A stretch of DNA of 64,000 nucleotides from Halobacteriovorax marinus SJ (GCF_000210915.2 NC_016620.1:2976001-3040000); one strand, 5' to 3'; positions 21,297 to 43,891 are shown, counted from the stretch's first letter. The notes: generated by a model not told the origin, from the letters alone. Translations and numbers: made by a program.

Positions 21297-23114
21297 TTAC
21301 TTTTTCAATAGATCAATTAACTCGATAAACTCTTCACGATAATGGTGCTTGTCCTCACCTTTAGATCTATCTGCCATAGATCTAATTTCTTCATAACTCA
21401 TATTCTTCGTCAGCTCATCATCTCTAAGCTTCAGTCCAAAACTTGCAACCGCAAGGGCAAAGGTAAAGTCATTATCAACAAACTCAGAACCACCCTTAAG
21501 AGATTTCTCAAACTTATCACTCATAAAAGCATTTGGTTTCTTGTATCTAACCTTTACGGTTAATAACTCATCAGAGTTAACTTCAGTCTTTGTTGAAGAT
21601 GAATATTTCAATTTATCTATCTTAGGTAAATCAATCCCTCCACCCTTTGGAACAATCTCATAGATAGCAGTTACAGTGTGTCCAGCACCAATATCACCAG
21701 CATCTTTTGTATCATCATTAAAGTCTTCGTTTGCAAGCTGTCTATTTTCATACCCAATAAGACGATAGGCCTCTACTTTAGAAGGATTGAACTCAATTTG
21801 AATTTTCACATCTTTCGCAACTGTTACGAAATTCTTTTCTAAATCAACATTTAAGATCTTATTGGCTTCGCTCAATGAATCGATATAGGCATAATTTCCG
21901 TTCCCTTTATTAGAGATCTCTTCAAGCAATGAATCTGAATAATTACCCATTCCTAACCCGAGTACCGTTAGATATATATTCTTCTTTGCTTTCTCTTGTA
22001 TGAGGTCTACTAATTCATAACGACTTGTTGTCCCGACATTAAAATCCCCATCTGTTGCTAAAATGACTCTATTCACTCCATTTTTTATAAATTCTTCCTC
22101 AGCTAACTTATAGGCTGCAACAATACCGGCTCCTCCATTAGTTGAGCCCCCAGATTGGAGTTGATTGAGCGCTTTATGGATTTTAACTTTATCTGAAACA
22201 CTAGTCGGTTCTAAAACAACACCTGAAGAACCAGCATAGACTACAATTGATACCTTATCATCGCCCTTTAAGTTTCTAAGAAGAAGCTTAATTGACTCCT
22301 TAAGAAGAGGTAATTTATTTGGGCTACTCATTGAGCCAGATACATCTAAAAGAAACACTAGATTCTTTGAAGAGTTAATAGCTGTTTTTGGAGTATCGGC
22401 TTTAAGTGCGACCCTAACAACTTTTCTGTCTTTATTCCAAGGACTATTTGTTAAATCTAACTTTAAATCAATTGGATGTTCAGGATTTGAAAAAGTGTAA
22501 TCATAAGAAAAGTAATTGATTAATTCCTCAACTCTAACCGCTCCTTTATTTGGCCTTACTCCGTTATTAATAAACCTTCTAACGTTTGCGTAGCTTGCTG
22601 TATCGACATCTATAGAGAATGTTGTAAGAGGGTTATCGCTTACTCGAGAATAGCTACTCGCTTCAATATGATCATATTTTTCACGAGAGAGAAGATTAGT
22701 TGAGTGAACTTGACTATCACTAAAATTATCAGCAAATCCCTCATACTTTCCAAAAAAATTATCATGAAAACGATCTTTCAAGTTTGAATTGCTAAAATTA
22801 TACCAAATAGCGACAGTAGCAATGAAGAGTGTAAATACACTCGTTGTTAAGGAGAGACCTAGAGCTATCTTCTTAAAAATTTTCCATTTCTTTTTCTTTA
22901 AAAGCTCTTCTTTACTGGCCTTAGATAAGTTTAAAACTTGATCCCTTTGGTATTCACTTTTTATAGCTGCTGAAGTTGCTCTAATGGCCTCTACTTCAGC
23001 ATTAATTTCTTCTTCAGAAATATCTTTGCTTAAAAGATCATTTCTATAATTACTTCCTTCTTCAATAGTCATTTCATCAAGGGCAAATTTTGTAAATAAT
23101 GGATCATGATTCAT
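21297..23114 (-). CDS. Membrane VWA-domain protein of YfbK type with anti-sigma-like N-terminus
   Basis: The order of parts is: a charged N-terminal cytoplasmic region (1-80), one membrane helix (about 82-105), a YfbK-type VWA N-terminal region (about 148-215, NPLTTFSIDVDTASYANVRR), and a VWA domain with the metal-site motif LDVSGSMS (256-263). A YfbK C-terminal domain (DUF3520-like) follows. The VWA part should be periplasmic and bind a ligand through a divalent metal. It overlaps the ECF sigma gene by 11 bases. The cytoplasmic N-terminus is in the position of an anti-sigma domain; that role is inferred. The length of 605 is somewhat longer than YfbK. Confidence 0.85.
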   Translation of the reverse strand: MNHDPLFTKFALDEMTIEEGSNYRNDLLSKDISEEEINAEVEAIRATSAAIKSEYQRDQVLNLSKASKEELLKKKKWKIFKKIALGLSLTTSVFTLFIATVAIWYNFSNSNLKDRFHDNFFGKYEGFADNFSDSQVHSTNLLSREKYDHIEASSYSRVSDNPLTTFSIDVDTASYANVRRFINNGVRPNKGAVRVEELINYFSYDYTFSNPEHPIDLKLDLTNSPWNKDRKVVRVALKADTPKTAINSSKNLVFLLDVSGSMSSPNKLPLLKESIKLLLRNLKGDDKVSIVVYAGSSGVVLEPTSVSDKVKIHKALNQLQSGGSTNGGAGIVAAYKLAEEEFIKNGVNRVILATDGDFNVGTTSRYELVDLIQEKAKKNIYLTVLGLGMGNYSDSLLEEISNKGNGNYAYIDSLSEANKILNVDLEKNFVTVAKDVKIQIEFNPSKVEAYRLIGYENRQLANEDFNDDTKDAGDIGAGHTVTAIYEIVPKGGGIDLPKIDKLKYSSSTKTEVNSDELLTVKVRYKKPNAFMSDKFEKSLKGGSEFVDNDFTFALAVASFGLKLRDDELTKNMSYEEIRSMADRSKGEDKHHYREEFIELIDLLKK

Positions 23115-23628
23115 TTAAAACCTCCTGTGAGTAAATAACTTGTTCTTTTAAAACAATAGCGCGAACTTTCTTTACACAGTCATGGATAATAAAACCAACA
23201 TTTGAAACACTTAGGTTTGTAATAGAGCTAATCTCTTTGTAGCTTAAGTCATTTGCAAACTTTAAAGTCATAACTTCGACCTCAATAGGCTTTAACTTTC
23301 CAATCTCTTGCAAAATAATACTGCTATCAAATACAGACTCACTAATTGATGGGCAGCTTATCAACTCTTCAACTTCTCCATCAAAAACAAGCCTCGTATC
23401 CTTTCTAAGAATATCTATGGCCATATTTCTACAGACTCTATAGAGCCAGGCCTTTGGATAATTCTCATACTCTTTATTAGGGAAAACTTCTCTCCATAGT
23501 TTTAGAAAGCTTTCCTGAGTCACCTCTTCACTAGTCGCTCTTTTACGTAGAATTTTAAAGACATAACCAATGAGAGGAGCTTCATGTTTAAGAACAACTT
23601 CCGTAAACCACTTCATTTTTTTAGACAT
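23104..23628 (-). CDS. ECF-type RNA polymerase sigma factor
   Basis: I chose the ATG at 23628 (MSKKMKWFTEVV), which has a TTGGGGAT site; the longer frame from 23676 has none. Region 2 is seen in TQESFLKLWREVF and YRVCRNMAIDILRKD. Region 4 has the helix-turn-helix SYKEISSITNLSVSNVGFI. The 174 residues are typical of group IV sigma factors. It directs RNA polymerase to a small regulon, probably including itself. The 11-base overlap with the membrane VWA gene suggests that protein controls it. Confidence 0.92.
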   Translation of the reverse strand: MSKKMKWFTEVVLKHEAPLIGYVFKILRKRATSEEVTQESFLKLWREVFPNKEYENYPKAWLYRVCRNMAIDILRKDTRLVFDGEVEELISCPSISESVFDSSIILQEIGKLKPIEVEVMTLKFANDLSYKEISSITNLSVSNVGFIIHDCVKKVRAIVLKEQVIYSQEVLNES

Positions 23629-23822
23629 AATAAATCCCCAACAAATAGTTTCTAAGTTAGATACGTTTGAACTCACATTTTCTTAGAAAGAAATTTCTAT
23701 AAACTAAAGATTTTTCTTTAATTACGGACACTTAGGAGTACAAAAGGATAATAAAAGTTATTTAACTATTCGATATATCTAGGGATAATTTGATAAAAGA
23801 TTTCTTGAACTTAGGTGTAGGC

Positions 23823-23857: not shown

Positions 23858-23941
23858 TGGTGCCCAGAAGAGGACTTGAACCTCCACGCCAAAGGCACTA
23901 GATCCTAAGTCTAGCGTGTCTACCAATTTCACCATCTGGGC
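23858..23941 (-). tRNA. tRNA-Leu (anticodon UAG)
   Basis: A complete 84-base gene with encoded CCA. The acceptor stem GCCCAGA pairs with TCTGGGC. The D arm carries AATTGGTAGACAC. The anticodon stem CTAGA/TCTAG encloses the loop CTTAGGA, giving anticodon TAG. There is a class II variable arm (TGCCTTTGGCGT), and the T arm is GGAGG-TTCAAGT-CCTCT. It reads CUA and other CUN codons. It is a single gene with a terminator directly after. Confidence 0.98.
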
Positions 23942-24045: not shown

Positions 24046-26658
24046 TTAAGCGGCTTTCTTCTTGGTTACTGCTAATTTACGCTCAGACTCAGCTAATTTT
24101 GTTTTTAGCAGGTTAGCCTCTTGCTTGTACTTTAAGATTTCTTTCTTCTTTTCAGCAAGCTCACTCTTAGCATTCTGAGCTTCTGTTTTAAAGTTCTCGT
24201 TTAGCTTCTCGAGGTGCTTAATCTTGTGCTGTGACTTAGCATCAGCACCTGAGCGAGAACTACCTCTACCAGTGCTGCTCTTTCTCGCACTTTCTTCAAC
24301 TTGGGCCATAAGAAATTTATTCTTTTGCTCCAATTGCTTTATCTTTAAGCCTAGGGCCTTGCTTTGATCAACACCTTTCTTGACTTCGAGGTTAAGCATT
24401 TCTATTTCTTTCTCTTTTTCAATTAACTCACTAGCATCATTTGATGTGCTTTGCTCAGGAACAATTGTATCCAACTCTCTTTGTAAGGATTGTAGCCTTT
24501 CAACTTCTTCAGAAAGTTCTTTATTTTCTTTTTGAAAAGAGTTGATGACTTGCTGGCTCTTCATCATCTTTGTTCTAAAGTGAGCAGTATCTTCATCAGA
24601 TTTTGTAAGAGCATCTTTGCGCTCTTGCTCAAGCTTAGTATTTAGTATTTCGCTTCTCTCTCTAGCATCTTCTAGCTGTGCCTCTAAAGTTTTTACTTTT
24701 GCTTCAAAGGACTTAATTTCTGCATTATTTGGAATCTGTTTAACTATATCTTGAACAAGATCATCTTTATGTCTCTGGGCCTCGAGAGCCTCAGACATAT
24801 TCTCTCTATTGGACTTTAATATCTCAATCTCTTTTTCTTTCTTACTAAGCTCATCTTTAACTTTAGCTAGCTCTACTTCTGCAACAGTGTCCCTTTCAGG
24901 GTCAGCATTTCTCTTTTGTATAATAAGCTCTTTTTTCATAGCGTCGATCAACTTCATCATTCGACTTATTTGAGCATCTTTCTTAGCTGCTGAGTCTCTT
25001 AGATGAGTCACCTCTTTATCAATAGAGCTCGTACTTTCTTCTTTAGTAACTTCAAGAGAGTTAATCAAGGTATCATCAAGTAACCCCTTAACTAGTGCAT
25101 TAGATTCACTCCCTTCAATATTTAAATTCTCTTGAAATAGACTTGAGATCTCATCTTTTATATCCAGATCTTTAAGTTCATTATCAGACTTAACTCTTTC
25201 TCTAAGCTTAGCAATAAGTCCGTCTTTAGCCGCTCTCCACTTGGGTAAGTGTGCTTGTACATTATCGTAATTAACTTCTCTTCTAGAATTGCTTTCACTT
25301 TCAGAAGAATTTGAGTCTCCACTGATAACAAAAGTTTCCTCAGTTAAATCTTCCCTAGACCCCTTAATGAGCTGAGTCTTCTCTCCAATATCTTCACGAC
25401 TACCAGAAACAATCGTTTTAGAATTGTCAGGTTTATCAACCCATCCAGACACTCGCGTTACGGCTTCACTATAGTCTTGAAGCCCAAGACTTACGATTTC
25501 GTTGGCCTCATCTATATCCAGATTTTCAATTTTATTAATTAGTTTTTCTAGAACTTCTTCATTACTAAGAGAGGTTTCCTTTTTAGAAACTGAATTTTCT
25601 ATCTCTTCTATTTTTTGACTACTTTGCAGTACTTTAAGAATCTCTTCCTTATCATGCTGAGTAATACCTTTTATGATTTTTTTATTCGGATAATTCTCTA
25701 AGAACTCAGATAGATTGGAGATTGTAATATCATCAGAGGATTGCATTTTTACAAAGTCTACTATCCTCTTAATATTGCCTAATTCTAATGTTCTACTTGA
25801 AGAACTCTTTAGAGAAAAACTCTCATCGAGAGTATCTTTAAGTTCAAAGTTTTCTATATCTTCTTTCTTTGAAATTCCATTGAAGTTAAACTTCTCTATA
25901 TCATGAATGTAGATTGCTTTATTCTCAGAACCTTTAGACCAAGCACATGTTAGAACCAACTTATCCGTACGTGAGAGTTTATAAATATCTAAAGAATTCA
26001 CATTTTCTATAATTTGACCAATAGACTCTTTATCACTTAAGAAGTTATCTACTAGGTACTCAAGATAGAAATTTTCAACAGGAAAGTGAGCTTGAATAAA
26101 GAAGTCATCTCCACAGACCCCAAAGTCTATATCTAATGGAAAGGATCCTCTATCTGAAAGAATAATTTGAGAACTCAATTCAAAGAGATGAAATAGAGTT
26201 TTCTTAACCTTAAAGAAATCAAACTCTCTCTTAGCCGCCTTAATTGCAATTGAATCGCTATAGAAACCTGAATTTAGATGATCAGATACTTTAAAGCTAC
26301 CAATCCCCTCAAGGCCATTACTCATTGACTCAGAGGTTCTTAGTGTTGAATCTTCTCCCAAAAGTCTTTTAAAAAATGTTCTATCAACTTCACTCTCTCC
26401 AAGTTCTGAAGGAACAATGGAAACCACTCCCTCTTTAAAGAGAGATGCATGCTCTTTGGACTCACCTATATAAATTATTTGAGCTTCCACTAGGTCAGTA
26501 AAACTCTCTCCTGGACCCACGAGTGTAAACTTATATTCTCTGCCTTCTTTTCTCTCTGTATCAAGAGAAAAACCAAGCTCCTGAAGAACCTCAACATAAG
26601 ACTCGTTAAGAGAGTCTCCTAGTAGATTAAGAATGTACTTTTCTTGCACATCACTCAC
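24046..26658 (-). CDS. Large coiled-coil protein of unknown function
   Basis: The 870-residue product has no signal peptide or membrane helix. Residues 1-100 look like a compact alpha/beta domain, possibly a degenerate receiver (AQIIYIGESKEHASLFKEG). Residues 100-260 form a second folded region. Three short repeats with the core SGSRED or KGSRED occur at about 414-447. From about 550 to 866 it is almost continuous coiled coil rich in Glu and Lys, broken by a Ser/Gly linker at 792-806, and it ends in basic KKKAA. This layout recalls polarity or motility scaffolds of myxobacteria (AglZ, FrzS), but no homology was established. Its start overlaps the stop of the pseudo-HD-GYP gene by one base. 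Confidence 0.85.
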   Translation of the reverse strand: MSDVQEKYILNLLGDSLNESYVEVLQELGFSLDTERKEGREYKFTLVGPGESFTDLVEAQIIYIGESKEHASLFKEGVVSIVPSELGESEVDRTFFKRLLGEDSTLRTSESMSNGLEGIGSFKVSDHLNSGFYSDSIAIKAAKREFDFFKVKKTLFHLFELSSQIILSDRGSFPLDIDFGVCGDDFFIQAHFPVENFYLEYLVDNFLSDKESIGQIIENVNSLDIYKLSRTDKLVLTCAWSKGSENKAIYIHDIEKFNFNGISKKEDIENFELKDTLDESFSLKSSSSRTLELGNIKRIVDFVKMQSSDDITISNLSEFLENYPNKKIIKGITQHDKEEILKVLQSSQKIEEIENSVSKKETSLSNEEVLEKLINKIENLDIDEANEIVSLGLQDYSEAVTRVSGWVDKPDNSKTIVSGSREDIGEKTQLIKGSREDLTEETFVISGDSNSSESESNSRREVNYDNVQAHLPKWRAAKDGLIAKLRERVKSDNELKDLDIKDEISSLFQENLNIEGSESNALVKGLLDDTLINSLEVTKEESTSSIDKEVTHLRDSAAKKDAQISRMMKLIDAMKKELIIQKRNADPERDTVAEVELAKVKDELSKKEKEIEILKSNRENMSEALEAQRHKDDLVQDIVKQIPNNAEIKSFEAKVKTLEAQLEDARERSEILNTKLEQERKDALTKSDEDTAHFRTKMMKSQQVINSFQKENKELSEEVERLQSLQRELDTIVPEQSTSNDASELIEKEKEIEMLNLEVKKGVDQSKALGLKIKQLEQKNKFLMAQVEESARKSSTGRGSSRSGADAKSQHKIKHLEKLNENFKTEAQNAKSELAEKKKEILKYKQEANLLKTKLAESERKLAVTKKKAA

Positions 26659-27614
26659 TAGGCGGCCTCTTCTTTTGTAGAATTATCATTGAATTTTTGA
26701 AAGAGATATTCTCGAAATGAAGCCATCACTTCATTTTCATTCTCTTGAGCAGTAAGTAAGTTCCAAAGAAACTTATCTCCATCCCCACGAGTGTATTCAT
26801 ACTCACCTCTAGAGAGAGTAGACTCAAGGAATATAGAGATCTTTTCAAGCTCACTCAGCTCATTGATATTTAATTGATAGCTTCTCCCTTCGCCCGAAAA
26901 AGACTCATGGTGAAACTTTATTAATTTTGAGAGTTGCTTATTTGTTAGATTGTAATAGCCAGATTTTTGGAAATCCTCAAATGAGTTTTCGCTGTGATCA
27001 ATTTCTATATGCTCTTCTGATTTATATTCTCTTTTAGAAAATGAGAAATCATTAAAGAAGCTAATATTGTAAATATCTTTTAAGAGGCTAAAGTGAGTAT
27101 AGCCGCACATATATGAAGTTAAGGCCATTAGACTTGCATAGAGTGAAGCCCTACGGTGTAGCGAGAATGCTTTCTCATCCATATCTTCTGAAAAAGATGG
27201 AGCGATTTCATAGAATGCACTATTAAATAGAATGACTAAATTTAATAGCGAGGCAGATGACTCTCCCCTCCAGAATATAGGTAGAATTAGCTCTTTTAAC
27301 TCTTCCCTTAAATTTAAGCGAGCCAATTCACTTTCTTCTACTTTAAGTTGATTTAGAATTTCAAGTCCACGCTCAATGAATTCGCTTTCAGTATATTCAT
27401 TAATGAATAAGTGATCTGTTACTTTTTGAAAGCGCTTAAGCTTGGAGAATTCTACAATATCTCCACTATGTAATAACTTGATGAGCTTCCCATCTCCTTT
27501 TTTCCAATACAAATCCCCAGAAGAAGTTTTCATCTTCTCTAAGTTTTCAAAAGTAATAGGCTTCAGTTCACCGTCGTTTTGTGAACCTTGATCATCTAAC
27601 ATGCATTTCTCCAC
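26658..27614 (-). CDS. Degenerate HD-GYP-like protein
   Basis: The 318 residues divide into an N-terminal part of about 110 residues and a helical domain laid out like HD-GYP. His153 in LHRRASLYASLM matches the first conserved histidine. DIYNISFFNDF stands where LHDIGKIGV should be, so the HD metal pair is lost. KFHHESFSGEGRSYQLN (234-250) matches HHExxDGSGYPxGL but lacks GYP. It is therefore probably a non-catalytic binding or scaffold protein, perhaps c-di-GMP responsive. The identification is mine by eye. It is first of a two-gene operon with the coiled-coil protein. Confidence 0.7.
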   Translation of the reverse strand: MEKCMLDDQGSQNDGELKPITFENLEKMKTSSGDLYWKKGDGKLIKLLHSGDIVEFSKLKRFQKVTDHLFINEYTESEFIERGLEILNQLKVEESELARLNLREELKELILPIFWRGESSASLLNLVILFNSAFYEIAPSFSEDMDEKAFSLHRRASLYASLMALTSYMCGYTHFSLLKDIYNISFFNDFSFSKREYKSEEHIEIDHSENSFEDFQKSGYYNLTNKQLSKLIKFHHESFSGEGRSYQLNINELSELEKISIFLESTLSRGEYEYTRGDGDKFLWNLLTAQENENEVMASFREYLFQKFNDNSTKEEAA

Positions 27615-27658: not shown

Positions 27659-27686
27659 AAAAAAAAGCCTCCCAGAAAGGGAGGCT
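27659..27686 (-). terminator. Terminator of the oligopeptide transporter operon
   Basis: On the minus strand GCCTCCC pairs with GGGAGGC around TTTCT and runs into eight Ts. It lies about 35 bases after the last permease stop and before the pseudo-HD-GYP gene. Confidence 0.92.
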
Positions 27687-27719: not shown

Positions 27720-28628
27720 TCACTTTCCTTTAAGCTTTGGATCTAGAGCATCTCTAAGAGCATCCCCTAAGATATTCAAAGAAAGAACAACAATCATCAT
27801 TGCTAGAGTTGCGGCCCCTAATTGCCACCAAACACCTCTGGCAAGCTCAAGTTTAGCGTCATCAATCATTGTTCCCCAACTTGGTCTTCCCTGAACACCA
27901 AGACCTAAATAAGAAAGAATAACTTCAGTCTTAATTGCTGTTTGAAACATTAAAGAGAAGTTAATAATTACTAAGTGAGATACATTTGGAAAAATATGCT
28001 TAATTAATTTTCTTGAATGACCTCCACCTAGTGCAGATGCCGCTTGAACATAGTCTCTATTCTTATGTCTCATAACTTCGCCACGAATTAGACGACAAAG
28101 GTTTACCCAAGAAGTTAACCCAAGAGCAACGTACATTGAAATTAAACCTCTTCCAAGAACAAAAGAAAGTGCAACTAGAAGCATGATTGTAGGAATTGAT
28201 TGAAAACAAGTGTAGAACCACACGATTAATTCATCAACCTTTCCACCGAAGTATCCAGCAATACTTCCTAATACAACACCAATACATACAGAGATAAGGG
28301 CCGCGACAAGTCCTACTGACATTGCAACTTCCGTCCCTTTAATCATTTTAGTAAAAACACTTCTACCAAAAATATCTGTTCCGAAAATAAAGTCTGTACT
28401 CGGAGAAGCATACGAAGGTCCGACTTCAACTGCCCAGTCTGAAGCTATGATACCAGTAGCAGACAGGACTGATACTAATGCGTAAATCCCAACAATAAAG
28501 AGAGACGTTACGGCCATTTTGTCTTTGAAGATATTTTCTAAAGCATGATCCCAAAGAGACTTTGATTTATTCATTTTCTTTTCTGTTAATTCTACACCCT
28601 CAACGGATTGTATATTTGATTGAGACAC
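27720..28628 (-). CDS. Oligopeptide/dipeptide ABC transporter permease, OppC/DppC type
   Basis: An inner-membrane permease subunit. The 302 residues have six helices: a first helix near residue 40 with a long cytoplasmic N-terminus, then a periplasmic segment (GPSYASPSTDFIFGTDIFGRS), which is characteristic of OppC. The coupling (EAA) loop is VQAASALGGGHSRKLIKHI. The end, LGDALRDALDPKLKGK, is the family consensus. It is third in the operon, 10 bases after the OppB-type gene. No ATPase subunit genes follow. Confidence 0.93.
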   Translation of the reverse strand: MSQSNIQSVEGVELTEKKMNKSKSLWDHALENIFKDKMAVTSLFIVGIYALVSVLSATGIIASDWAVEVGPSYASPSTDFIFGTDIFGRSVFTKMIKGTEVAMSVGLVAALISVCIGVVLGSIAGYFGGKVDELIVWFYTCFQSIPTIMLLVALSFVLGRGLISMYVALGLTSWVNLCRLIRGEVMRHKNRDYVQAASALGGGHSRKLIKHIFPNVSHLVIINFSLMFQTAIKTEVILSYLGLGVQGRPSWGTMIDDAKLELARGVWWQLGAATLAMMIVVLSLNILGDALRDALDPKLKGK

Positions 28629-28638
28629 TGGTCTTCTC

Positions 28639-29580
28639 CTACTTTAAACGTACTCTTGGATCTACAACGGTATATAAAACATCTGTGATAACACTAAAGA
28701 TGATATAGGCCATTGCTGTTAAAATCGTCATGGCCTTAATCACTGGAAAATCAGAGTTATAAACACCATTTAATGTAATCCCACCTAGACCTGGAATACT
28801 AAAGAAACTCTCTAGTAGTAGAGCACCTAGAATCAGGAAAGGAATTTGGATAACAACAAAAGTAATAATTGGAATCATTGCATTTTTAAGAACGTGCTTA
28901 AAGAGAATAACTTTCTCTGACAACCCTTTGGCCTTAGCTGTTCTCACATAGTCTTGGTAAATTTCATCTAACATTACTGTTCTATAGAACCTTACGTCTG
29001 GACCGATTGAGAGAATAATCCAAATGATAACTGGAAGTACAATATAAGGGATAAAGTCTGGGAAACCTGATTCGTAACCCGAAATCTCAAACCAACCTAA
29101 CTTATAAGCAAAGAACCATTGTCCAAATAAGATATAAGCTAGAGAAGTAATACTCATAAGTAGAACACAGAAAAATACTGCACACTTATCAATCCACTGA
29201 CCTCTAAAGAAAGAGACGATAAGAGAAATTGAAATCGAAATAATTGTCGATAAAATAAATGCTGGCAGAGTTAAAGTAAGAGATGGTATCGCACCATTCT
29301 TAATCATCTGAAGAATCTCTTGCTTAGTTGTCCAAGACCTTCCGAAATCAAAAGTAAACGCAGACTTTACAATATCAAGGTACTGGGCCCATAAAGGCTT
29401 ATTAAGTCCAAGTTCATTTCTAAGTTCTTCAATCTGAGAAACTGTTGCGTGTTTTCCTAGCATAATTAATGCAGGATCCGGTGCTACAACATTAAAAATA
29501 ACGAATATAATTAATGCCACACCTAAGATCGTAGGAATGATGTAAAATAATCTTCTAAGGATGTACTGCCACAAATTCAA
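28639..29580 (-). CDS. Oligopeptide/dipeptide ABC transporter permease, OppB/DppB type
   Basis: I place the start at TTG 29580 (MNLWQYILRRLFYIIPTILG), which has an AGGTGG site and matches the family N-terminus. The longer frame from 29628 would translate a terminator-like hairpin. The 313 residues carry six helices, the long second periplasmic loop, the coupling loop TAKAKGLSEKVILFKHV and the ending LYTVVDPRVRLK. It pairs with the OppC-type subunit to form the channel. Confidence 0.92.
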   Translation of the reverse strand: MNLWQYILRRLFYIIPTILGVALIIFVIFNVVAPDPALIMLGKHATVSQIEELRNELGLNKPLWAQYLDIVKSAFTFDFGRSWTTKQEILQMIKNGAIPSLTLTLPAFILSTIISISISLIVSFFRGQWIDKCAVFFCVLLMSITSLAYILFGQWFFAYKLGWFEISGYESGFPDFIPYIVLPVIIWIILSIGPDVRFYRTVMLDEIYQDYVRTAKAKGLSEKVILFKHVLKNAMIPIITFVVIQIPFLILGALLLESFFSIPGLGGITLNGVYNSDFPVIKAMTILTAMAYIIFSVITDVLYTVVDPRVRLK

Positions 29581-29601
29581 AATTAACCACCTGATTAATG
29601 T

Positions 29602-29625
29602 AAAAAGCCCTCTACAAGAGAGGGC
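29602..29625 (-). terminator. Intra-operon attenuating hairpin between binding protein and permeases
   Basis: On the minus strand GCCCTCT pairs with AGAGGGC around a 5-base loop, followed by TTTTTA. A short T-tract suggests partial termination, which would keep binding protein in excess over permeases. Confidence 0.65.
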
Positions 29626-29644
29626 CATAGTATTTTAGATAATC

Positions 29645-31408
29645 TTAAAGCTTTTTAGTCACTTTAGCTTTTAGCTCTGTATCAATATTTAAATATTGAG
29701 CCTGACCTGTTTCGAAGTCAGTAGACATGTAATTCTTTAAGAAAGAATGTCTAAGAGTAAAGTTTTGTCTGTGTACTCCATAAATCCATGGAGCTTGCTC
29801 AGCTGCAATTCTATTCATTTTCTCATAAAGAGCTGTTCTCTCTGGAGAATCTTGCATTACAGAAGCAGTCTTAAATAGCTTGTTAAACTCTGGGTTATCA
29901 TATCCAGAACCATTTGCTCCTGGAGCTTTATTTGGTCCGTATAATAACTGTAGGAAGTTCTCAGCATCTGGGTAATCTGCTCCCCAAGCAATACCGTAAA
30001 GCATAACTTGTCTCTTAGTGATCTTCTTCTGAAGCTCTGGCCAAGGATTTGTTACAACTTTAATTCTTACTCCAATTTGAGCCATTTGTTGTTTCATGTA
30101 GTCACCAATCTGACGAGAAACTGTTCCAGATGGACAATCGTAAGTAATTTCAGGAAGCCCTTTTCCTTCTGGGTAACCTGCTTTCGCTAATAATTTCTTA
30201 GCTTCTTCGATATTTGGTCCTCTATATGGAGAAACATAATTTGGAATATTACCTGCAATCCCTGGAGGAACTACAGATTGAGCTGGAAGAGAAGTGTTAT
30301 TGTAGAATAACTCATTTGACTTCTTAACGTCATACGCTAAAGACATCGCTCTTCTAAGGTCTGGGTTTTGAAATAATTTTAGGTCGTGATTAAACGCCGT
30401 GTAAGTTACATCTAAAGAAGGAGTGATCATTAAAGAGATACCCTTATCTTTATATTCTTTAGAAAGCTCTCTCTCTGGTGTTACAGCAGAGTCAAAGTTA
30501 TCTTTTGGAATACCGATATAATCAACGTTTCCTTTTAGGAAGTTTAACCATCTTGGTTGAGACTCGATGATAACGCTAACAACAACTTTATCTACGAGTG
30601 GTAATTGCTTACCAGCGTCTTCTAAGAAACCTGCTGCTTTAAATTCGTCACTCGCCTCAGTTGGGTAAAGCTTCTTTCTAAAGTTAGGGTTCTTTGTATA
30701 TACAACTTTCTTAGTTTGCTTAAATACTGGAAGAACAAATGGTCCTGTTCCTACAGGGTGATTTAAGAATTCTTTTCCATACTTTTCAACAACTTCTCTA
30801 GCTGTTGCAAAAGTAAATGGCATTGCTAGTGAGTAAAGGAACTGTGGAAATGGCTTCGTCAGTTTAAACTCTAGAGTGTATTTACCAGTAGCTTTTAAAC
30901 CTTCAACAACTTCGTCGTAATCAACTTTGTCGAGGTCAGCATACTTCTCTCTCCACTCATTTAAACCTTTAATCTTTCCGTCAAGTAACCACCAACCAAG
31001 GCCCTGAAGCTTAGGGTCAGCAAGTCTCTTAATAGAGTAAACAAAGTCTTCAGCTACTAACTCTCTTCCCTTACCGTTAGGAAAAGCTTCACTGTCATGG
31101 AAGAGAACTCCCTGGCGAATTTTAAAAGTATAAGTAAGCCCATCTTCAGATACAGATGGCATAGACTCAGCTAAATTTGGAACTAGTGTGTATGGTCTCT
31201 TTAAGTAGTGATACTCGAGTAAACCTTCGTACACGCGCCCAACTTCATTACTTGAATAACGATCGTTTGCGTAGATTGGGTCCATACCTTTAATTTCAGC
31301 CGAAACTGCAATATTAAGAGTCTTTCCCGTTTCCTTTTCTTTCTTAGTACAACTTGCGAATCCAACTAGGACTGCTGCAGTTGCCAAAAGCGTTGTAAAC
31401 TTCTTCAT
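29645..31408 (-). CDS. Peptide-type ABC transporter substrate-binding lipoprotein (OppA/DppA family)
   Basis: A periplasmic family 5 solute-binding protein tethered by lipid. The lipobox is GFASC with Cys20. The SBP_bac_5 fold starts with LNIAVSAEIKGMDPIYAND, with VPNLAESMPSVSEDGLTYTF, KYTLEFKLTKPFPQF and VGTGPFVL typical of the family. The 587 residues are slightly larger than OppA. It is the first gene, upstream of both permeases. Ligands are probably oligopeptides, but the family also binds other compounds. Confidence 0.93.
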   Translation of the reverse strand: MKKFTTLLATAAVLVGFASCTKKEKETGKTLNIAVSAEIKGMDPIYANDRYSSNEVGRVYEGLLEYHYLKRPYTLVPNLAESMPSVSEDGLTYTFKIRQGVLFHDSEAFPNGKGRELVAEDFVYSIKRLADPKLQGLGWWLLDGKIKGLNEWREKYADLDKVDYDEVVEGLKATGKYTLEFKLTKPFPQFLYSLAMPFTFATAREVVEKYGKEFLNHPVGTGPFVLPVFKQTKKVVYTKNPNFRKKLYPTEASDEFKAAGFLEDAGKQLPLVDKVVVSVIIESQPRWLNFLKGNVDYIGIPKDNFDSAVTPERELSKEYKDKGISLMITPSLDVTYTAFNHDLKLFQNPDLRRAMSLAYDVKKSNELFYNNTSLPAQSVVPPGIAGNIPNYVSPYRGPNIEEAKKLLAKAGYPEGKGLPEITYDCPSGTVSRQIGDYMKQQMAQIGVRIKVVTNPWPELQKKITKRQVMLYGIAWGADYPDAENFLQLLYGPNKAPGANGSGYDNPEFNKLFKTASVMQDSPERTALYEKMNRIAAEQAPWIYGVHRQNFTLRHSFLKNYMSTDFETGQAQYLNIDTELKAKVTKKL

Positions 31409-43162: not shown

Positions 43163-43891
43163 ATGGATAAGAAAAAAGATAATGTTATTTCACTTCAAAC
43201 GGTTATTGCTAATGTAGCAATGCTTGACCTTGTAAAACAAGTTCGAGAGCTGCGTGAGCAACAACGAGAAATGTGTGAAATGGCAGTAAAAAGTATGTTA
43301 AGAGCACTAGATGCTAAAGACCACTATACATATGGTCACAGTACTCGTGTTGCTTATTATAGTGTTACTCTTGGTAAAGAGCTTGGTCTTAATGATGAAG
43401 AAATGTATGAGCTAGAAATGTCTGCTCTATTTCATGATATTGGTAAAATTGGTGTTCCCGATGCTGTTTTACTTAAGCCTGCGAGACTAACAGAAGATGA
43501 ATTTCTAAAGATGAAAGAGCATCCAAGTATGACAGCAGAAATCCTTCAAGATTTTGATTGCTTCACTGACATTGCTACTTATGCCAAACATCACCATGAG
43601 AGATATGATGGTCGCGGATACCCAGACGGGCTTAAAGGCGAAGAAATACCTCTATTTTCAAGAATCATTTTAATTGCTGATACTTTTGATGCAATGACTT
43701 CTACAAGACCATATAGAAAGGGCCTACCTTATGAAGTTGCCTTTAGTGAGCTAGAAGAATTTTCAGGTTCTCAATTTGATGCTGAACTTGTTAAGCACTT
43801 CATCAAGGCAATGACTAGAGAAGATTCAAAAGGTGAAGATACTTTTGAACTTACAATTATCGAAGGGAACTTCGCTAAAGACGCTGCTTAA
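43163..43891 (+). CDS. HD-GYP domain phosphodiesterase
   Basis: A c-di-GMP hydrolase candidate with all motifs intact: HSTRVAYYS (59-67), ALFHDIGKIGVPD (88-100), KMKEHPSMTAEIL, HHERYDGRGYPDGL (144-157) and ADTFDAMTSTRPYRKGL. The 242-residue protein has only a 40-residue helical leader (VKQVRELREQQREMCEM) before the domain, with no receiver or PAS input. It is a stand-alone gene with a bidirectional terminator, opposite the degenerate receiver/phosphatase gene across 262 bases. Confidence 0.95.
   Translation: MDKKKDNVISLQTVIANVAMLDLVKQVRELREQQREMCEMAVKSMLRALDAKDHYTYGHSTRVAYYSVTLGKELGLNDEEMYELEMSALFHDIGKIGVPDAVLLKPARLTEDEFLKMKEHPSMTAEILQDFDCFTDIATYAKHHHERYDGRGYPDGLKGEEIPLFSRIILIADTFDAMTSTRPYRKGLPYEVAFSELEEFSGSQFDAELVKHFIKAMTREDSKGEDTFELTIIEGNFAKDAA

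Follow-up and report, generated by a model that had tools for sequence, protein, structure and literature searches.

A co-inherited pair of degenerate HD-GYP and receiver–Bergerat genes in Halobacteriovorax marinus and its relatives: a candidate scaffold complex

Bd1817 (PDB 3TM8) is an unconventional HD-GYP protein of Bdellovibrio in which an N-terminal domain precedes the HD-GYP domain. It keeps a di-iron centre, has a closed pocket and shows no phosphodiesterase activity (PMC4159591). The same paper found that PmGH was left with essentially no activity when H189 or H221 was replaced by alanine, and that the effect of K225A was similar. DvhD, a membrane protein, has SQ in place of HD, has lost the metal ligands and uses its HD-GYP domain without catalysis. 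In DvhD, c-di-GMP is bound without metal and is not hydrolysed (PMC13090378). Mutations at canonical-site R650 or Y652/R653 weakened the stabilisation of DvhD by c-di-GMP (PMC13090378), and the protein has a second, bridging site.

Two further systems are relevant to the second protein described here. LvrC (PDB 9QIH) of Leptospira is a response regulator whose receiver leads into an RsbW-like Bergerat domain; it has a phosphorylated Asp, was crystallised with ADP and is a proposed anti-sigma factor (PMC13269768). In Myxococcus, FrzS and AglZ place a pseudo-receiver ahead of a long coiled coil, the pseudo-receiver of FrzS being Asp-less (PMC1974792).

Here we describe two adjacent genes, A and B, of Halobacteriovorax marinus SJ, found in a window of 64,000 nucleotides (GCF_000210915.2 NC_016620.1:2976001-3040000; positions below are counted from its first letter). 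Among bacterial predators, Halobacteriovorax and its family are a major lineage whose cell-organising proteins are little known. The chances seem to us evenly balanced that A and B form a stoichiometric two-protein scaffold complex of retired signalling domains. The features of the locus are as follows.

27720-31408, minus strand: oligopeptide permease-type genes (SBP_bac_5 and two BPD_transp_1), conserved 5' of A
27666-27686, minus strand: terminator-like hairpin setting A apart from the oppC-like gene
26658-27602, minus strand: gene A, a degenerate HD-GYP protein of 314 aa; GTG at 27614 is an alternative start
27393-27563, minus strand: A, small N-terminal beta/alpha domain (aa 14-70), common to A, Bd1817 and HD-GYP paralogues of the family
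26688-27329, minus strand: A, helical HD-GYP domain (aa 92-305), to all appearance catalytically degenerate
27042-27059, minus strand: A, HD motif lost, with FFNDFS (aa 182-187) where FHDIGK would stand
26898-26912, minus strand: A, HHE kept (aa 231-233), then GEGRSY in place of GxGYP
24046-26658, minus strand: gene B, 870 aa, pseudo-receiver, pseudo-Bergerat domain, helical region, repeats and coiled coil
26326-26658, minus strand: B, pseudo-receiver (aa 1-111) that lacks the DD pair and the Lys and whose Asp position is unconserved
25894-26325, minus strand: B, RsbW/SpoIIAB-like Bergerat (GHKL) domain (aa 112-255) without N-box or DxGxG
25465-25791, minus strand: B, helical region (aa 290-398)
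25315-25416, minus strand: B, tandem 13-14-residue repeats TIVSGSREDIGEKTQLIKGSREDLTEETFVISGD (aa 415-448)
24049-25041, minus strand: B, coiled-coil region (about aa 540-870) with a conserved basic C-terminal tail
23858-23941, minus strand: tRNA-Leu, conserved neighbour 3' of B, same strand as A and B

The gene order is thus opp - A - B - tRNA-Leu. An initial annotation, made from the sequence of the window, had the coordinates and strand of the pair right, as well as its one-base overlap (TAGTG, where the stop TAG of A at 26660-26658 shares its last base with the start GTG of B at 26658-26656). It had also placed a tRNA directly 3' of B and given the operon its own upstream insulation, and both are borne out by the tRNA-Leu and the terminator-like hairpin (27686-27666). 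For A we prefer the ATG at 27602 as the probable start because the GTG at 27614 sits inside a GGAG ribosome-binding stretch; this stretch, read as MEKCM, is kept in two relatives. Numbered from the ATG, the residues previously called His153 and HHE 235-237 become H149 and H231-E233.

Searching the single proteins against Pfam, NCBIfam and PADLOC gave no useful name for either A or B, and PADLOC matched neither to a known defence protein. The libraries searched leave B without a family name and A without a specific one. The HD domain of Pfam is barely visible in the single A sequence (E 0.12), and HD_5 is matched by 55/93 A relatives at E <= 0.1. Nor did open-licence papers, searched with general terms, yield any literature on the pair.

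The fold of A is nonetheless clear. An AlphaFold2 model built on 93 sequences has a mean pLDDT of 91.6 and a pTM of 0.91 and predicts an HD fold, as the initial annotation had supposed when it called A a pseudo-HD-GYP protein. Both the profile and Foldseek searches led to Bd1817 and PmGH. In particular, the five best Foldseek matches in the PDB are all Bd1817 (best E 7.6e-5), and the A profile finds Bd1817 by sequence at E 3.1e-7, with the N-terminal domain giving a second, weak match. Whole-chain TM-scores against Bd1817 are low (about 0.35), plausibly due to the two domains being set differently. A and Bd1817 have the same layout, an N-terminal domain followed by the HD-GYP domain; they differ in that Bd1817 keeps its di-iron centre, whereas A has lost two His ligands throughout its family and is tied to gene B.

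These losses become apparent when the A relatives are aligned with nine HD-GYP paralogues of related genomes and four of the own genome (three of them canonical). In the A of the window the HD pair is replaced by ND (N184-D185), the GYP position reads GRS, and R150, the neighbour of H149, aligns with the canonical metal His. Across the family, the first metal His (H189 position) is R/K in 86/92 relatives and His in none of the 92; His is likewise absent (0/92) from the H221 position of the HD pair, and Lys (0/92) from the K225 position. Other elements are kept: D222 in 70 of the 92, the Glu of HHE in 87 and the GxG glycines in 81-82, and most relatives read GxGFP at the position of GYP. Because the H189, H221 and K225 positions are gone, and given the alanine results in PmGH, the alignment argues strongly that A is catalytically dead family-wide, lacking the residues for metal-dependent phosphodiesterase activity. 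The genome does have intact proteins of this class. For example, among its eleven HD_5 matches is a canonical HD-GYP protein in the window, at about 43295-43789 (G000:C1:3019295-3019789), with HDIGK, HHE..GRGYP and RPYRK intact.

A dead HD-GYP domain could still read c-di-GMP, as the initial annotation proposed for A. In this reading A would be a non-catalytic receptor of c-di-GMP (or cGAMP), similar to DvhD, relaying the signal to the B scaffold. DvhD is a direct precedent for binding without metal or hydrolysis (PMC13090378), and like A it has lost the HD motif and metal ligands. Moreover, the nearly invariant Arg/Lys at the H189 position could contact phosphate, and many A relatives keep HHE/GxGFP. 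On the other hand, R650, Y652 and R653 of DvhD would, judging by their spacing, be residues of the RPYR/K loop. This loop is absent or unconserved in the A relatives (Y aligned in 0/92) and is already gone from the related HD-GYP paralogues. A also has neither the membrane nor the PAS part of DvhD, and the pocket of Bd1817, its closest solved fold, is closed (PMC4159591). With both the metal ligands and the contact loop missing family-wide, the proposal is weakened, and c-di-GMP reading by A appears the less likely course; we keep it as such since DvhD also has its bridging second site. Overall, we regard a DvhD-like receptor as unlikely.

Protein B required a search by fold. Pfam gave merely scattered weak matches on the B heads, and comparing the B profile with the PDB by sequence gave only weak Enkurin-like matches, which we set aside. 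Residues 1-470 were modelled from 91 sequences (mean pLDDT 81, with low confidence past 398); a receiver-like domain takes up about 1-111, and a beta-alpha-alpha-beta-beta-alpha-alpha-beta-beta-beta domain follows at about 112-255. For the first 255 residues the best Foldseek match is LvrC (9QIH, E 8.7e-8), then RsbW and SpoIIAB; the domain order, receiver first and RsbW-like Bergerat second, is therefore common to B and LvrC. The Bergerat domain is the main element missed by the initial annotation, which also overlooked the repeats discussed below and the opp - A - B - tRNA-Leu order.

Unlike LvrC, B has lost its receiver and ATP motifs and has gained repeats and a coiled coil. The DD columns of the receivers are acidic in only 2-6/91 sequences, the Lys is present in at most 6/91 and an Asp follows strand 3 in at most 33/91; in the Bergerat domain, DxGxG occurs in 0/91 and an N-box-like motif in 3/91. 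With the DD pair, the Lys, DxGxG and the N-box all lost, both are, going by their sequences, pseudo-domains, in keeping with the pseudo-receiver suspected earlier. A coiled coil had been anticipated too, and the heptad pattern supports it: heptads are clear yet discontinuous from about 540 to 870, with periodicity above the 99% shuffle level in parts of 600-740 and weaker at 541-582 and 821-862, so that the proposed length of over 300 residues is a fair upper estimate. 'Giant', as B had been called, is generous for this member of 870 aa, though relatives run to about 1,790 aa. The basic C-terminal tail is kept across the genus.

Between the head and the coiled coil, B carries tandem units of 13-14 residues (e.g. 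TQLIKGSREDLTEE). Receiver-repeat-ankyrin proteins encoded in the same genomes also carry these units, sometimes in more than 10 copies, an example being a 398-aa protein at L169:4803-5999 (G000:C1, about 1278802-1279998). A repeat matrix derived solely from the receiver-ankyrin proteins, and then scored on B, found 246 sites in 94 B proteins vs 19 in shuffled copies. The unit seems to be a hitherto undescribed linear repeat of the family, and its occurrence in both kinds of protein suggests that they use a common binding partner, which the repeats could serve to fish out. That B docks through its repeats is a guess, given that this region is modelled at pLDDT < 50. Proteins in which a receiver is followed by tandem units like QTIKGSKQDLAEES and C-terminal ankyrin repeats were seen in L169, L095 and L170-L176; the one in L170 additionally has a degenerate HD-like region.

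The case for A and B acting together comes from their distribution. In profile searches, A (at E <= 1e-25) was found in 99/129 family genomes and B in 102/129, at least one of the latter matches being to the repeats only, and neither was found in 240 other genomes of the phylum. About 80% of the genomes in the family thus carry the module. Among named genomes, the scan matched only two, another H. marinus isolate and a metagenome assembly of Bacteriovoracaceae. Linkage, which the initial annotation had left as a way to refute it, is universal where it could be tested. A lies directly upstream of B on the same strand for 95/98 B genes in the fetched loci; two of the remaining three abut a contig end and the third (L164) has 533 nt before B, less than a typical A. 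The gaps are mostly -4 to +19 nt, and the adjacency holds down to 15-20% identity. Since the genes overlap or abut, are present jointly and are absent jointly, we argue that their products act together.

Parsimony on a PilT tree, whose root is arbitrary, gives about seven changes in the presence of A-B, three of them forced by well-supported branches. Together with the fixed gene order, these changes fit an ancestral pair that was lost repeatedly. The tight order could in part reflect a generally conserved neighbourhood, as opp and tRNA-Leu are also kept. Distances in A and B covary when PilT is controlled for (partial correlation 0.49, permutation p 0.0004, 30 genomes), although shared rate effects can produce this without any contact, and PilT is an imperfect control for phylogeny because its own distances correlate only weakly with those of A (0.21) and B (0.13). 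In the controls over 12 genera, again given PilT, A-OppC reached 0.02 and B-OppC 0.14, vs 0.47 for A-B.

Being inherited and lost together points to a scaffold complex. In this complex, B, like RsbW and LvrC, would use its Bergerat domain to dimerise, together with its coiled coil, and A would dock onto the receiver-Bergerat head of B as a protein-binding partner, being neither an enzyme nor a canonical c-di-GMP receptor. The repeats of B would recruit the partner also used by receiver-repeat-ankyrin proteins in the same cell. Altogether, A-B would be a localisation hub, not a catalyst. If so, three dead enzyme folds would be united in a single scaffold, which is unusual. The wide occurrence and clear co-inheritance of A-B make it a defined gene pair to delete and tag. 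A wider reading, which we put forward tentatively and with more doubt than conviction, is that of a family-wide, vertically inherited complex of Bacteriovoracaceae-type predators. Its HD-GYP, receiver and Bergerat folds would all have lost their chemistry and been turned into a scaffold, one that shares docking repeats with receiver-ankyrin proteins and serves as a lineage-specific cell-pole or predation hub.

A pole or predation role is conjectural. The A-B complex would resemble FrzS/AglZ in build, a likeness of architecture only; B too joins a pseudo-receiver to a long coiled coil. In its specific form, this would have A-B organise the invasion pole as a FrzS/AglZ-like scaffold for polarity or type IV pili. 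At least two PilT-family ATPases occur in 25/33 genera with A-B vs 2/11 without (Fisher p 0.0012), but this association is post hoc and the genera share ancestry and are not independent. All five genomes without a flagellin match also lack A-B. There are exceptions in both directions: g25 and g61 have two PilT without A-B, and the reverse is found in g21, g62, g22 and g60. In addition, FrzS and AglZ have, to our knowledge, neither a Bergerat domain nor an HD-GYP partner gene such as A. We therefore treat the PilT/flagellin link as suggestive but phylogenetically confounded, a weak lead towards the pole or type IV pili, and think it unlikely that this specific form of the scaffold is the right one.

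The match to LvrC raises another option, which we find quite improbable. B could be a regulator of the LvrC kind, either an anti-sigma factor or one that works by partner switching, and be antagonised by A; a sigma-70-type factor gene indeed lies close by (23104-23676). The ATP motifs of B are lost, however, and neither the sigma gene nor its von Willebrand A neighbour is among the clustered downstream neighbours of relatives, so that the proximity looks local; the sigma factor was accordingly dropped as a partner of A-B. We also know of no member of the anti-sigma class with a long coiled coil. The sigma gene overlaps that of a YfbK-like von Willebrand A protein; the two (21297-23676) are flanked by the tRNA and a prepilin-like gene. 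In L062-L064 that prepilin-like gene takes the pair's place as first conserved neighbour, and for this reason the pair looks like a local insertion.

Least probable of all, and in our view very unlikely, is that A-B is an accessory regulator of the adjoining oligopeptide permease with no part in polarity: opp-type genes do lie within three genes 5' of A on the same strand in 19 loci of the longer-flank set, where the protein-coding genes beyond tRNA-Leu are unconserved, but a terminator separates opp from A in the window, a divergent transporter-like gene adjoins A in 8 loci, and tRNA-Leu is conserved as well, so a common neighbourhood need not mean a common function. In several other genera, ATPase genes are found 5' of A. 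On the other side, tRNA-Leu follows B on the same strand in 77/95 pairs, at a median gap of 60 nt. It may be an integration site, as a phage-type integrase-like gene lies beside it on the opposite strand in three loci (L061, L083 and L085).
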